Positions 10,153 to 13,700 of a stretch of DNA of 14,853 nt are shown piece by piece. The notes beneath the pieces were generated by a model. It made no database searches, had not been told where the DNA came from, and worked only from the letters and a program-made list of their open reading frames with translations. The DNA is from Pseudomonadota bacterium (GTDB lineage Bacteria > BMS3Abin14), in assembly GCA_016937135.1 (NCBI GenBank), contig JAFGWO010000218.1, positions 1 through 14,853 of the forward strand, given 5' to 3'. The translations under genes were made by a program, and so were the position numbers. The number at the start of each line of letters is the position of its first letter. Position 1 is the first letter of the stretch.

Positions 10153-10854
10153 TCAGGCATAGGCGAAACCGCCCTGGGCCATTTTCCCCTCCTCCTTCAT
10201 CCGGTCGATGACATTCCGGTAGGGCGGATGATTGAAGATGGCGGATCCGGCCACGAGGATGGTTGCCCCCGCGGACACCACCTCGGCCGCGTTGCCGGGG
10301 CCGACCCCGCCGTCTATCTCGATGGGGATCCTTTTGCCGCCGTGCCGGAGCATGGCGGACAATTCCCGCACCTTGTCCATGACGGAGGGTATGAAGGCCT
10401 GGCCCCCGAATCCCGGGTTGACGCTCATGAGCAGAATAAAATCCACGTCGTCGAGGATGTATTTTAACCCGTAAGGGGGAGTGGCGGGATTAAGGACAAC
10501 CCCGGCAAGGGCCCCCTTTTCCCGGATGAGGGCCAGGGAGCGCTGAAGGTGGACCTGCGCCTCGAGGTGGACGCTGATCATGTTGACCCCGGCATCCACG
10601 AAGGCGCCGACGAACTGGTCGGGGTTTTCGATCATGAGGTGCGCGTCGAAGGGGAGGTTCGTACAGCCGCGGAGTTTGGCGATCACCGGGGGACCAAAGG
10701 TGATATTGGGGACGAAGTGCCCGTCCATGATGTCCAGGTGGAGGATGTCGGCCCCCGCTTCCTCCACGGCGGCGATTTCGTCGCAAAGCCTGGAAAAATC
10801 GGCGGAAAGGAGGGAAGGAGCGATAAGGACGCGGTTCGGGTCAAGATTCATCAT
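10153..10854 (-). CDS. rpe: Ribulose-phosphate 3-epimerase
   Basis: Rpe interconverts ribulose-5-phosphate and xylulose-5-phosphate in the pentose phosphate pathway, in the cytosol. At 233 residues it has the normal length, and all TIM-barrel signatures are present: IAPSLLSADF (11-20), HLDIMDGHFVPNITFGP (39-55), DAHLMIENP (70-78), MSVNPGFGGQ (143-152), IEIDGGV (179-184) and VAGSAIF (201-207). The metal and catalytic set H39, D41, H72 and D181 is intact. The start is ATG-ATG at 10854/10851 with GAGGCGAGG just upstream. It is the last gene of the fmt-to-rpe cluster but is separated from the PASTA gene by 309 bp of palindromic repeats, so it may be expressed at a different level from its upstream neighbours. 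Confidence 0.97.
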   Translation of the reverse strand: MMNLDPNRVLIAPSLLSADFSRLCDEIAAVEEAGADILHLDIMDGHFVPNITFGPPVIAKLRGCTNLPFDAHLMIENPDQFVGAFVDAGVNMISVHLEAQVHLQRSLALIREKGALAGVVLNPATPPYGLKYILDDVDFILLMSVNPGFGGQAFIPSVMDKVRELSAMLRHGGKRIPIEIDGGVGPGNAAEVVSAGATILVAGSAIFNHPPYRNVIDRMKEEGKMAQGGFAYA

Positions 10855-10886
10855 TGCCTCGCCTCAGAAATCTTTCAATGTGAATG

Positions 10887-11152
10887 ATTGATGACTTCGC
10901 AAAAAGTCATCAATGCGCCCCGTGCGGGGCGCCCGGATTGGGGGCCAGGGACTGCGCCTGGAAGGGGCGCCCGGATAATTGATCCGACATTATCAATTAT
11001 CCGTGAGAAAAACGAAAATCCCACTTTTCGTTTTTCGTAGAGCTAAAGGACCAAAAGACCTTTAGCGATTATCAGTAGCTACCGTGAGGAAAGGGAAAAC
11101 GACGTTTTTCCCTTTCCGTTTCGCAAAAAGTCCCGGATCGGACTTTTTGCGA
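10887..11152. repeat. Array of seven consecutive perfect stem-loops (palindromic element, copy A)
   Basis: The whole 309-bp gap between rpe and the PASTA gene is non-coding and is built of hairpins. Arms are: 10887-10897/10904-10914 (11 bp, ATTGATGACTT); 10915-10921/10926-10932 (7 bp, GCGCCCC); 10972-10983/10992-11003 (12 bp); 11007-11018/11025-11036 (12 bp, GAAAAACGAAAA); 11042-11049/11059-11066 (8 bp, GCTAAAGG); 11088-11099/11106-11117 (12 bp, GGAAAGGGAAAA); 11121-11133/11140-11152 (13 bp, TCGCAAAAAGTCC). Loops are 4-9 nt. A weaker CCAGG/CCTGG pair lies at 10945-10961, and GGGGCGCCCGGAT is repeated at 10926 and 10964. No stem is followed by a clear T tract on either strand, so these are not plain terminators. 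The class of element is not one I can name. Confidence 0.9.
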
Positions 11153-11163
11153 TCCTGTCATAA

Positions 11164-12117
11164 TTAATCCCCCATCTCCTTTTCCTCCACGAGGGTCCCG
11201 TCCAGATACACCATCAGGGTGCCCGGACCGGGGATGGTGAGGGGGAGGGTGACGGAGGTTCCCGGTTCCACGACGTTCTCCCAGAGGGTCCGGGGCCCTT
11301 CATCGGTCTGAAGGACGATGGTCAGGGTTCGTTCGAGGAGGCCGGGAGGGATGGAGTGCTGGAAAAGGAAAAGCCTTCCGTCCTCTGATGCTTCCGGCAT
11401 TTTCGACACCGTTAGGTGGATGCTTTGGCCCTCGGTTACAGGACTTCCGGGAGGGGGGTTTAAAGCCATGACTGTCCCGGGCGGGAGCGCCGCTGATGCC
11501 ATCTCCTCCACCCGGCCGGGGGCGAGCTTCCACCCTCTGAGGATGTCCAGGACCGTTCCCATGGGAAGATCGGTCAGGTCGGGGAGAAGATAGGTGGCCG
11601 GCCGGGGCCCCTCGCTGAGGAGAAGGTTGACGGCCGTATCGCGCGGTACGAAAAGATCCGGGGATGGAAACTGGGCGATTACATCCCCCCGGGGGATGTC
11701 CGGATGGAAGGACCGGGCCGTCCGTCCCAGGCTGAGGCCCGCCTGCACGAGGACGAGCTCCGCGTTGCGAAGATTGCGGCCCGCGAGGTCCGGGACGAAG
11801 ACAGTCCTTGTCCCCTGGCTGACGATGACGTGAACAATGCGGTTTTTCCGTGTGCGGATCCCCGGCCCCGGGTCCTGGGAAATGACATGTCCGGGAGGGA
11901 CGCCAACGTCGAACCCCGTTCCCGAGATCCTGACGCCCAGCTTTTCCCGGCTGGCGCGCTCGAGGGCCGCCTTTAGCTCCATACCCGTAAAATCCGGGAC
12001 CGTGACTTCCCCCCCCCGCGTCAGGAAGGCGAAAACCACCCAGGCTGACAGGACCGCCGCCAGGATCATGCCTCCGGCAAGGAGGAAAATTTTCGCGACT
12101 ATACCCACGCGGGTCAT
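11164..12117 (-). CDS. Membrane-anchored protein with three PASTA domains
   Basis: The 317-residue protein has one N-terminal membrane helix (about 7-32, AKIFLLAGGMILAAVLSAWVV), then three PASTA domains outside the membrane at about 37-100, 105-170 and 175-240. Each follows the pattern of VPDFTGM or VPDLAGR start, a helix, a PPGxVxxxxP turn and a V-strand end. A C-terminal beta-rich segment (245-317, PGTSVTLPLTIPGPG) follows. PASTA domains bind peptidoglycan fragments or beta-lactam-like ligands, but this protein has neither the kinase nor the transpeptidase domain found in PknB or PBP2x. A stand-alone PASTA protein between rsmB and rpe is, as I recall, common in Geobacter-like genomes. GGGAGGGA lies about 12 nt before the ATG. 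Palindromic repeats lie on both sides of this gene. Confidence 0.88.
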   Translation of the reverse strand: MTRVGIVAKIFLLAGGMILAAVLSAWVVFAFLTRGGEVTVPDFTGMELKAALERASREKLGVRISGTGFDVGVPPGHVISQDPGPGIRTRKNRIVHVIVSQGTRTVFVPDLAGRNLRNAELVLVQAGLSLGRTARSFHPDIPRGDVIAQFPSPDLFVPRDTAVNLLLSEGPRPATYLLPDLTDLPMGTVLDILRGWKLAPGRVEEMASAALPPGTVMALNPPPGSPVTEGQSIHLTVSKMPEASEDGRLFLFQHSIPPGLLERTLTIVLQTDEGPRTLWENVVEPGTSVTLPLTIPGPGTLMVYLDGTLVEEKEMGD

Positions 12118-12146
12118 GCTTTAAAAATCCCTCCCTTTGCTCCTGA

Positions 12147-12269
12147 GGATCCGGCTTCACCGCGCCCCGCGCGGGGCGGCCGGATCCATGACCGGCATTA
12201 CACGTCCTGGATCCGTAAAGCGAAAAGTCCCGGATCTAAGTTTTCGCGGCCCTATCATATTCAGCTGAA
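12147..12269. repeat. Palindromic element, copy B (related to 10887-11152)
   Basis: The gap between the PASTA gene and rsmB holds a smaller set of inverted repeats. GGATCCGGC (12147-12155) pairs with GCCGGATCC (12179-12187) around a perfect 16-bp palindrome CGCCCCGCGCGGGGCG (12163-12178). CGGATCCA (12181-12188) can also pair with TGGATCCG (12208-12215). GCGAAAA (12220-12226) pairs with TTTTCGC (12241-12247) around GTCCCGGATC. A 10-bp palindrome TTCAGCTGAA ends the block (12260-12269). GCGCCCCGxGCGGGGCG and AAAAGTCCCGGATC are shared with copy A in the same order and orientation. Confidence 0.8.
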
Positions 12270-12326
12270 CTGAAAACAAAAACAAGCCTCCCGTAAAAAA
12301 GAGATGAAGGCAAAGGAAAAATGACC

Positions 12327-13700
12327 TCAGGCTTTTTTCATCAGGCAGGCGTAGAACCCGTCGCAGTGATGACGATGGGGCCAGAGGCGAAGGTCCCCTT
12401 CCGACGAAAACAGGCCCGGGGGAAGGTCCGGGAAGAGGGCCCGCAGATCCTGTCTCTTAAAGCCGCGTGTTTCGCCAAGGAACTCGCCGATCACCTCCTC
12501 ATTTTCCTCCCGGAAAAGGGAGCAGGTGCTGTAAAGGAGAAAACCTCCACGGATCAGAAGGGCCGCGCACGAAGAGAGAAGGGCAAGCTGTCCGGCGACA
12601 AGGCCCGGGATGGAAAAGGGGTCCTTGTTCCATTTGCCCTCGGGGTGGCGTCTTAAAATCCCGGTGCCGCTGCAGGGGGCGTCAAGAAGGATCCGCTGAA
12701 AGGAACCGGGAGGAAAGGGGGCGCCTTCCCGGGACATCTCGGCGGCCAGAAGGGCCACTTTTTGGACCCTGAGTCTGGCCAGCCCCTCGGCCATCAGGCG
12801 AACTCTCGAAATCTTCCGGTCAACCGCGGCTATGAAGGCCCTGTTTCCGGTGATCTGGGCCAGATGGCCGGTCTTGCCCCCCGGGGCGGCGCACGCGTCC
12901 AGGATGCGTTGGCCGGGGCGGGGATCGCAAAGGGGGGCGATAATCTGGGCTCCTTCGTCCTGAACGGCGCACCGCCCATCCAGGAAAGGGGGAAGATCCA
13001 GGGGGGACCATCCCCCCTGGACAAGGATGGCGGTATCGCAAAGAGCCCCGGGGACGGCCCGGATCCCCGCCGATTCCAGTTCCTCGAGCAGGGCCTGGCG
13101 GCTGGTCATAAGGGTATTGACCCGGAGCGTCAGGGGCGGTTTCCGGTTCAGGGCCTCCAGGATCCCGCGGGTCTCATCGATGCCTTCCTGGGCGGCGAGC
13201 CGTTCGACCATCCAGCGGGGAAACGAGGTGGAAACCTCGATATGAAGGATCGGGTCCTTCTCGAAATCGGGAAGGGGGACGGGCCCGGATGAGGCCGCTC
13301 TCCTTAAAAGGGCGTTGACGAGGCCGGAAAAACCGGCGTAGGGGGTGTTTTTTACCAGGCGGACGCTTTCATCGACGGCGGAATGGGAGGGGATCCGGTC
13401 CAGAAGGAAGAGCTGGTAGAGACCCAGGAAAAGGGCCTGGCGAACCGGCTCAGGAAGGGCCGCATCAGGTCTGGTCAAACGTCCCTTGAGGTTGTGCTCC
13501 AAAAAAAGGCGATGCCGGACGACGCCCTGGGTGAGTTCGGTGACAAGGCCCTTGTCCCTGCGGGTGAGGGTCGAGCGGGTGAAGGATTTTTCCCGAAGGG
13601 CCTCCAGGGATTCCTCACCTTTTTCCCATTCGATGAGGATATGCCAGGCCGCTTCCCTTGGCCCCTCACGGGGCAGGGGTCTCTGAATTTTCCCTTTCAT
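12327..13700 (-). CDS. rsmB: 16S rRNA (cytosine-967-C5)-methyltransferase RsmB (Sun/Fmu)
   Basis: RsmB methylates C967 of 16S rRNA using S-adenosylmethionine. From the ATG at 13700 it has 457 residues, close to the normal length. The N-terminal part (about 10-140) is the NusB-like RNA-binding domain (REAAWHILIEWEKGEESLEAL, GLVTELTQGVVRHRLFLEHNL). The methyltransferase domain shows the SAM motif ILDACAAPGGKTGHLAQ, motif IV LLDAPCSGTGILRRHPEGKW and motif VI LLYSTCSLFREENEEV, so both conserved cysteines (PCS and TCS) are kept. The frame is open to 13796, but the extra 32 residues lie within DUF116 in another frame and look unlike the family. The chosen start still overlaps the DUF116 stop by 35 bp, suggesting coupled translation. 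Confidence 0.95.
   Translation of the reverse strand: MKGKIQRPLPREGPREAAWHILIEWEKGEESLEALREKSFTRSTLTRRDKGLVTELTQGVVRHRLFLEHNLKGRLTRPDAALPEPVRQALFLGLYQLFLLDRIPSHSAVDESVRLVKNTPYAGFSGLVNALLRRAASSGPVPLPDFEKDPILHIEVSTSFPRWMVERLAAQEGIDETRGILEALNRKPPLTLRVNTLMTSRQALLEELESAGIRAVPGALCDTAILVQGGWSPLDLPPFLDGRCAVQDEGAQIIAPLCDPRPGQRILDACAAPGGKTGHLAQITGNRAFIAAVDRKISRVRLMAEGLARLRVQKVALLAAEMSREGAPFPPGSFQRILLDAPCSGTGILRRHPEGKWNKDPFSIPGLVAGQLALLSSCAALLIRGGFLLYSTCSLFREENEEVIGEFLGETRGFKRQDLRALFPDLPPGLFSSEGDLRLWPHRHHCDGFYACLMKKA

Follow-up and report, generated by a model that had tools for sequence, protein, structure and literature searches.

Why should a single intergenic gap of a bacterial genome hold seven perfect hairpins in a row? 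The gap lies between the gene for a PASTA protein and rpe, both on the same strand, in the 14,853-nucleotide stretch of DNA from a Pseudomonadota bacterium that was analysed as a whole (contig JAFGWO010000218.1; hereafter the window, and its genome G000). The original prediction had offered two readings: a structure that stabilises or processes the transcript, or a non-autonomous mobile element made of palindromes, belonging to a REP/RAYT-like or a MITE-like family.

All seven perfect stems were confirmed at positions 10887-11152, including the abutting first pair and the two 3-bp gaps that had been described. The arms had been put at 7-13 bp; the upper limit of 13 bp holds and the lower does not, the shortest measured arm having 8 bp. 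The claim that such a density is far beyond chance was borne out by a shuffle check. When these 266 bases were put through 2000 dinucleotide shuffles, no more than three hairpins with arms of at least 7 bp arose (mean 0.19) versus seven observed, and no more than one stem of at least 11 bp versus five. The other 266-bp stretches of the window (n = 281) contain at most one hairpin each. A terminator scan of 10800-12400 returned one plus-strand site (11093-11111) versus 3.7 expected in shuffles, so that terminators, as predicted, do not explain the stems. Coding evidence is likewise absent as had been stated, with no ORF of at least 80 aa inside the array, and none of the 16 window proteins scanned matches a transposase family. 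The unit itself, delimited by terminal repeats, is shifted slightly relative to the hairpin span, and the PASTA stop codon lies 3 bp from its right end (Table 1).

Table 1. Features of the hairpin array and of a second, degenerate copy in the window
Feature	Position	Strand	Description
Whole long-form element	10889-11160	+	272 bp, read from H1 to H5; layout as in the 273-bp copy L301 of genome G003
Left terminal repeat	10889-10908	+	TGATGACTTCGCAAAAAGTC; terminal motif with 0 mismatches
Right terminal repeat	11141-11160	-	TGACAGGATCGCAAAAAGTC; terminal motif with 0 mismatches
Left flank	10885-10888		TGAT; matches the right flank TAAT (11161-11164) at 3 of 4 bases, an inexact duplication
Hairpin 1 (H1)	10887-10914		11-bp arms, loop 6; overlaps the left end of the element
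Hairpin 2 (H2)	10915-10932		8-bp arms, loop 2; G+C-rich; abuts hairpin 1
Hairpin 3 (H3 type)	10972-11003		12-bp arms, loop 8
Hairpin 4	11007-11036		12-bp arms, loop 6; extra H4-type stem of the long form; 3 bp from hairpin 3
Hairpin 5	11042-11066		8-bp arms, loop 9; extra stem, at the position of H5 in the repeated module
Hairpin 6 (H4)	11088-11117		12-bp arms, loop 6
Hairpin 7 (H5)	11121-11152		13-bp arms, loop 6; runs into the right end; 3 bp from hairpin 6
Second, degenerate copy	12155-12258	+	Between the PASTA gene and rsmB; profile match 12155-12255; H1 and H4 not recognisable

Is the array unique to this gap? A search of the gap sequence against its own assembly (1.71 Mb in 292 contigs, 81% complete) returned 160 matching pieces. 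Among the matches listed, hairpins 6-7 turn up at dozens of sites, mostly at a distance of about 28 bp from hairpins 1-2, and the common element is therefore shorter than the window copy. This common form measures about 156 bp and has five hairpins, namely H1 at the left end, the G+C-rich H2, H3, H4, and H5 running into the right end. The stretches fetched from G000 comprise 75 intervals of at least 30 bits on 55 contigs; 48 are near full length, and the window copy itself contributes three of the 75, as pieces. The pattern TGANNNNNTCGCAAAAAGTC occurs 186 times in G000 with up to two mismatches, versus twice for the reversed pattern. The terminal repeats are 20 bp long and imperfect, and their inner 12 bases are common to both ends. 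Tandem copies also occur, for instance two with ACGT between them (contig C84) and three with AAGG between them (C113). A second long copy, part of which is cut off by a contig end, lies on C193. At another locus (L176:840-1008, G000:C164) the end of a gene runs directly into an isolated H5 hairpin with the right end, which may have been recruited as a 3' end or terminator.

Exact 4-bp flanking duplications were found at 31 of 80 copies from G000 and its relatives, versus 3.2 expected when left and right flanks are paired from different copies, a control for target preference. The 80 were drawn from 82 full copies (two were left out for insufficient flank or as a duplicate) and are not all independent, since some are related or stand in tandem. 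Beyond the 31, a 5-bp match was seen at two more copies and agreement at three of four bases at another 20; the 49 copies that carry no exact 4-bp duplication include the window copy. The most frequent duplications are AGGT, AAGT, ATGT and ACGT. Owing to a preference of the targets for A before and T after, the register is uncertain by one base; shifted registers score 30 and 26. An insertion that replaces an inverted repeat and leaves no duplication, in the style of IS1272, was also considered and does not agree with these flanks.

The original prediction had proposed a comparison of rpe loci among relatives, and this comparison yielded ten empty sites. PASTA and rpe are adjacent with no insert in 10 of 11 family relatives, where the gaps span 18-269 bp and come no closer to the terminal motif than 5 mismatches. 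The eleventh relative (G006) cannot serve as an empty site, as the 1.5 kb that precede its rpe contain no PASTA match. Judged by Rpe, the closest named record is CP070682.1 (73% identity), and its gap sequence is identical to the one in G002.

The family is thus small, non-coding and dispersed in multiple copies, with 20-bp imperfect terminal inverted repeats, 4-bp (rarely 5-bp) target duplications, a modular hairpin interior and empty sites in relatives, the features by which a MITE is known. The hairpin array is one copy of a lineage-specific, multi-copy MITE, in a long form with seven hairpins. Of the interpretations originally offered, the non-autonomous MITE-like element made of palindromes is the one that is supported; the REP/RAYT version and transcript stabilisation as the cause of its presence are not, as set out below.

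The search for further copies, also proposed at the outset, was extended to other genomes. A 156-bp query matched 11 of 61 genomes, namely G000 and 10 of its 11 family relatives (G001 being the one missed), and none of the 49 others. A covariance model matched 14 of 386 genomes, 11 of 12 within the family and 3 of 374 outside it (G103, G325 and G370). The exact H5 pattern gave no match among named GTDB genomes. The match in G325 (L317, G325:C20:163552-163697; E 7e-12) is a multi-hairpin stretch from which the terminal motif is absent. Three loci in G004 and G011 (L233, L236, L252) represent another type of element, with like ends (TGATAACCTCGCAAAAAGTCTCTTCGAGCC...) and a different interior; L236 is flanked by ATTT on both sides. 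Derivatives of about 47-48 bp that consist of the two ends only were also seen (L169:985-1032, L256:1475-1521 and L205:220-266), with duplications of ATTT at L256 and of 5 bp (AGGGT) at L169. We dropped the argument that these derivatives prove the interior dispensable: a direct repeat is common to H1 and H5, and deletion after insertion would give the same 48 bp and flanks.

Which transposase could have moved such an element? Its ends (TGAnnnnnTCGCAAAAAGTC) are similar to the ends of IS1182-type insertion sequences. With up to three mismatches the end motif is found at 13 of 17 IS1182-type loci (9 of 12 genomes) versus 3 of 38 other transposase loci, and the reversed motif at 2 of 17 and 1 of 38, respectively. 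Among these IS1182-type loci are three copies from one genome (G146) and two loci that are one copy (L267/L270 of G007). Two of the three matches at other transposase loci (L226 and L230, 0 mismatches) are nearby sites of the repeat family itself, and the third (L223) has 3 mismatches. In the 81% complete assembly of G000 no Y1, rve or DDE_Tnp_1 gene was matched and no IS1182-type transposase was found. An rve-type IS or other DDE_Tnp_1 genes were rejected as partners, being absent from G000 and having the end motif near only those 3 of 38 loci. Across the 12 family genomes no intact IS1182-type transposase was found; the copy in G005 is incomplete and the others are fragments. MITEs can outlive their autonomous partner.

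The G005 locus was singled out by a scan for long-range inverted ends, which covered 34 of 40 transposase loci of the relatives. It is a 1667-bp IS with a 531-aa transposase and the ends TGACGGCATCGCAAAAAGTA and TGATGGACCCGCAATTAGTC, and it lies 4 bp from a MITE copy. The protein matches Pfam DUF772 and DDE_Tnp_1 above the Pfam cut-offs; its best NCBIfam match is IS1182, with E 1.8e-33 and 116 bits versus a cut-off of 270. Its two flanks do not match each other. A protein alignment, in which the row for G130 is in the wrong frame and carries no information, shows that the G005 transposase is without about 75 residues present in G146 and G370. The missing part includes the expected site of the catalytic glutamate, and the IS is for that reason probably inactive. 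IS1182-type fragments begin with TGACGGACTCGCAAAAAGTA in G009 and TGATGGCTTCGCAAAAAGTA in G007; a short fragment in G004 has no such end.

Transposases of the G005 type were found at E 1e-20 or better in 11 of 386 genomes. In G146 the open frame has 535 aa, and its IS copies show duplications of gctt (4 bp) and aatct (5 bp), the third copy having no recognised second end; the copy in G130 is flanked by aacat (5 bp). A genome of another family, G370, has a transposase that is 60% identical and a MITE of its own, 155 bp long. The IS end there is AGATGGCTTCGTAAGAAGTC, and the MITE end is TGATGGCTTCGTAAGAAGTC in five of six copies, the sixth having C at the first T change. IS and MITE ends are identical at 19 of 20 bases, and both differ from the end in the window by T for C and G for A; MITE and IS ends therefore change together. 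Exact 4-bp duplications (AAGA, TTAT, AGAT, ATCA) flank all four copies of this MITE with both ends readable, and two further copies are cut by contig ends. The flanks of a related copy in G103 (AATC/ATTA) and those of the G370 IS itself are unmatched. Judged from sequence, IS1182-type elements both inside and outside the family have ends of the MITE's kind, and show duplications of 4-5 bp where these are readable outside the family.

We conclude that the array is very probably a MITE copy inserted between the PASTA gene and rpe and moved in trans by an IS1182-type transposase. Such a transposase, supplied by an IS that is now lost, broken or unassembled, would have recognised the ends of the element, and copies would have moved by a DDE reaction with a staggered cut. 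Duplication of the H4-H5 module in tandem would have given rise to the long form. Another genus also shows the seven-hairpin layout, in copy L301 of G003 (duplication TAGT/TAGT), with the same order and spacing but different sequences in the stems. Relative to the window copy, 11 pairs of L301 in hairpins 3, 4 and 5 are doubly compensated, and its hairpins 1 and 7 together have 4 broken pairs. On this sequence comparison we regard the layout as a real subtype. In G005 a 566-bp element (L295:305-870, contig C4) with the flanks AAGT/AAGA carries an H4-H5-type module of about 82 bp in tandem and so exceeds the window copy in number of hairpins.

Pairing in the stems persists while their sequence changes. 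In an alignment of 70 of the 82 full copies, 94.2% of the cells at 52 pairs can pair, and 16 pairs show double changes. Seven of the copies left out were cut or of odd length (L005, L179, L224, L235, L236, L260 and L261); L014, L064, L162 (twice) and L200 were likewise not entered. Doubly changed cells number 148 versus 50 (sd 10) in shuffles, none of 500 shuffles reaching 148, with the proviso that the shuffles ignore kinship and that the structure was derived from the same sequences. When the partner is slid by 1-3 columns, at most 33 doubly changed cells remain. Pairing may be kept by selection on the folded strand during transposition, by selection on RNA or by template-switch correction.

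Template switching within palindromes, by which one arm is corrected from the other, is known as a mechanism from other palindromes and would make stems co-vary with no structural selection at all. In its favour are double changes for which no wobble intermediate is needed, for example from G-C to C-G in H4 and from G-C to U-A in H3. However, broken pairs remain in many copies, and correction must therefore be inefficient after insertion; we consider this account possible, but only tentatively.

If the element is mobile but its hairpins are preserved through selection on an RNA transcribed from H1 to H5, the compensatory changes seen in the stems would equally be expected. On this strand G-T exceeds A-C in 131 versus 78 cells, which would suit RNA, and the excess persists without the two loop-proximal pairs of each stem (112 versus 32 cells) and when counted by pair-by-genome cases (73 versus 38). 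Counted by pairs, however, it is small (36 versus 24), and folding energies are alike on both strands, the plus strand being more stable in 38 of 70 copies (p 0.34). Orientation was scored for the 93 copies that have a gene no more than 600 bp away on either side, genes being called simply as longest ORFs; 30 are antisense, 23 sense, 21 divergent and 19 convergent, with no bias. An Rfam search of the array gave four weak matches of 14-18 bits versus gathering scores of 45-60. The evidence for a strand-specific RNA function is mixed, and we regard selection on RNA as unlikely. By analogy with the proposal for IS1272, the internal hairpins, extruded as cruciforms or single-strand hairpins, might be recognised by a structure-sensitive IS1182-type transposase, so that copies that keep their stems would spread and modules would multiply. 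This idea is improbable as it stands; if true, it would describe a transposon with structure, not sequence, as its cargo.

Could the array instead serve the host, as a regulatory or mRNA-stability element retained for the PASTA-rpe transcript? It lies between two same-strand genes, and the minus-strand RNA of the gap folds at -136.7 kcal/mol (z -9.6), none of 100 shuffles being equally stable. Yet the ten relatives have no element at this place, and the same element adjoins many other genes with no bias in orientation. Stabilisation of the transcript, as originally suggested, is very improbable as the reason for its presence, although an incidental effect on the mRNA may occur.

Movement of REP/BIME-type palindromes by a RAYT (Y1, HUH) transposase is barely credible: the element is intergenic, palindromic and high in copy number, and Y1 genes occur in 8 of 12 family genomes, but no Y1 transposase (PF01797) was matched in G000 (81% complete) or in the element carriers G007, G010 and G011, the inverted repeats that flank 5 of the 11 Y1 loci tested in relatives are near-perfect but differ in sequence from those of the element, and copies of the element show target duplications, which are not known as a REP feature. 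Those five loci (L195, L198, L201, L202 and L204), each with inverted repeats of its own, are RAYT-like units unrelated to the element.

The array extends the known dispersed MITE families by one whose ends match those of IS1182-type elements. The turnover of stem sequence with pairing that persists across genera, and the expansion of hairpin modules within the element, are unusual. Knowledge of the family also helps in reading genomes of this lineage, in which many gaps between genes are occupied by copies and several contigs break off within or next to one. Searches of openly licensed papers turned up neither this family nor any MITE with a co-varying hairpin array.

How does the element compare with known systems? 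A MITE of an IS1182-family element is a known kind: ISMac2 of Methanosarcina acetivorans has a 160-bp MITE with 4-bp direct repeats in 14 copies (PMC3852290). It resembles the element in length, 4-bp repeats, multiple copies and an IS1182-family partner, a likeness of description and not of sequence, and differs in its archaeal host; the words "hairpin" and "secondary structure" are absent from the text of that paper. What is unusual here is the structurally maintained, expandable hairpin array. ISPse1, a captured IS1182-family element, likewise has 4-bp repeats (PMC3281130). IS1272, of the same IS family, is reported to replace target stem-loops and to leave no duplication (PMC5678879); inverted-repeat (stem-loop) structures are central to its transposition, whereas of the readable insertions described here most left 4-bp duplications. 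The stem-loop-replacing model of IS1272 raises the question of whether DNA hairpins are substrates of IS1182-type transposases, for which the present family offers a natural data set. BrickBuilt of Porphyromonas gingivalis is also an intergenic MITE with an internal tandem array, built from a 23-nt minisatellite unit in contrast to the hairpin module of about 82 bp (PMC4596501). ERIC, Correia/NEMIS, RUP, YPAL and other such bacterial repeats, compared by description and not by sequence, are likewise small, mobile and non-autonomous, and RNA structure motifs occur in some of them (PMC2229807). REP/RAYT systems (PMC3733652, PMC2817692) share the dispersed palindromes, whereas in G000 no Y1 gene was found and the element has target duplications and the terminal inverted repeats of a DDE-type IS.
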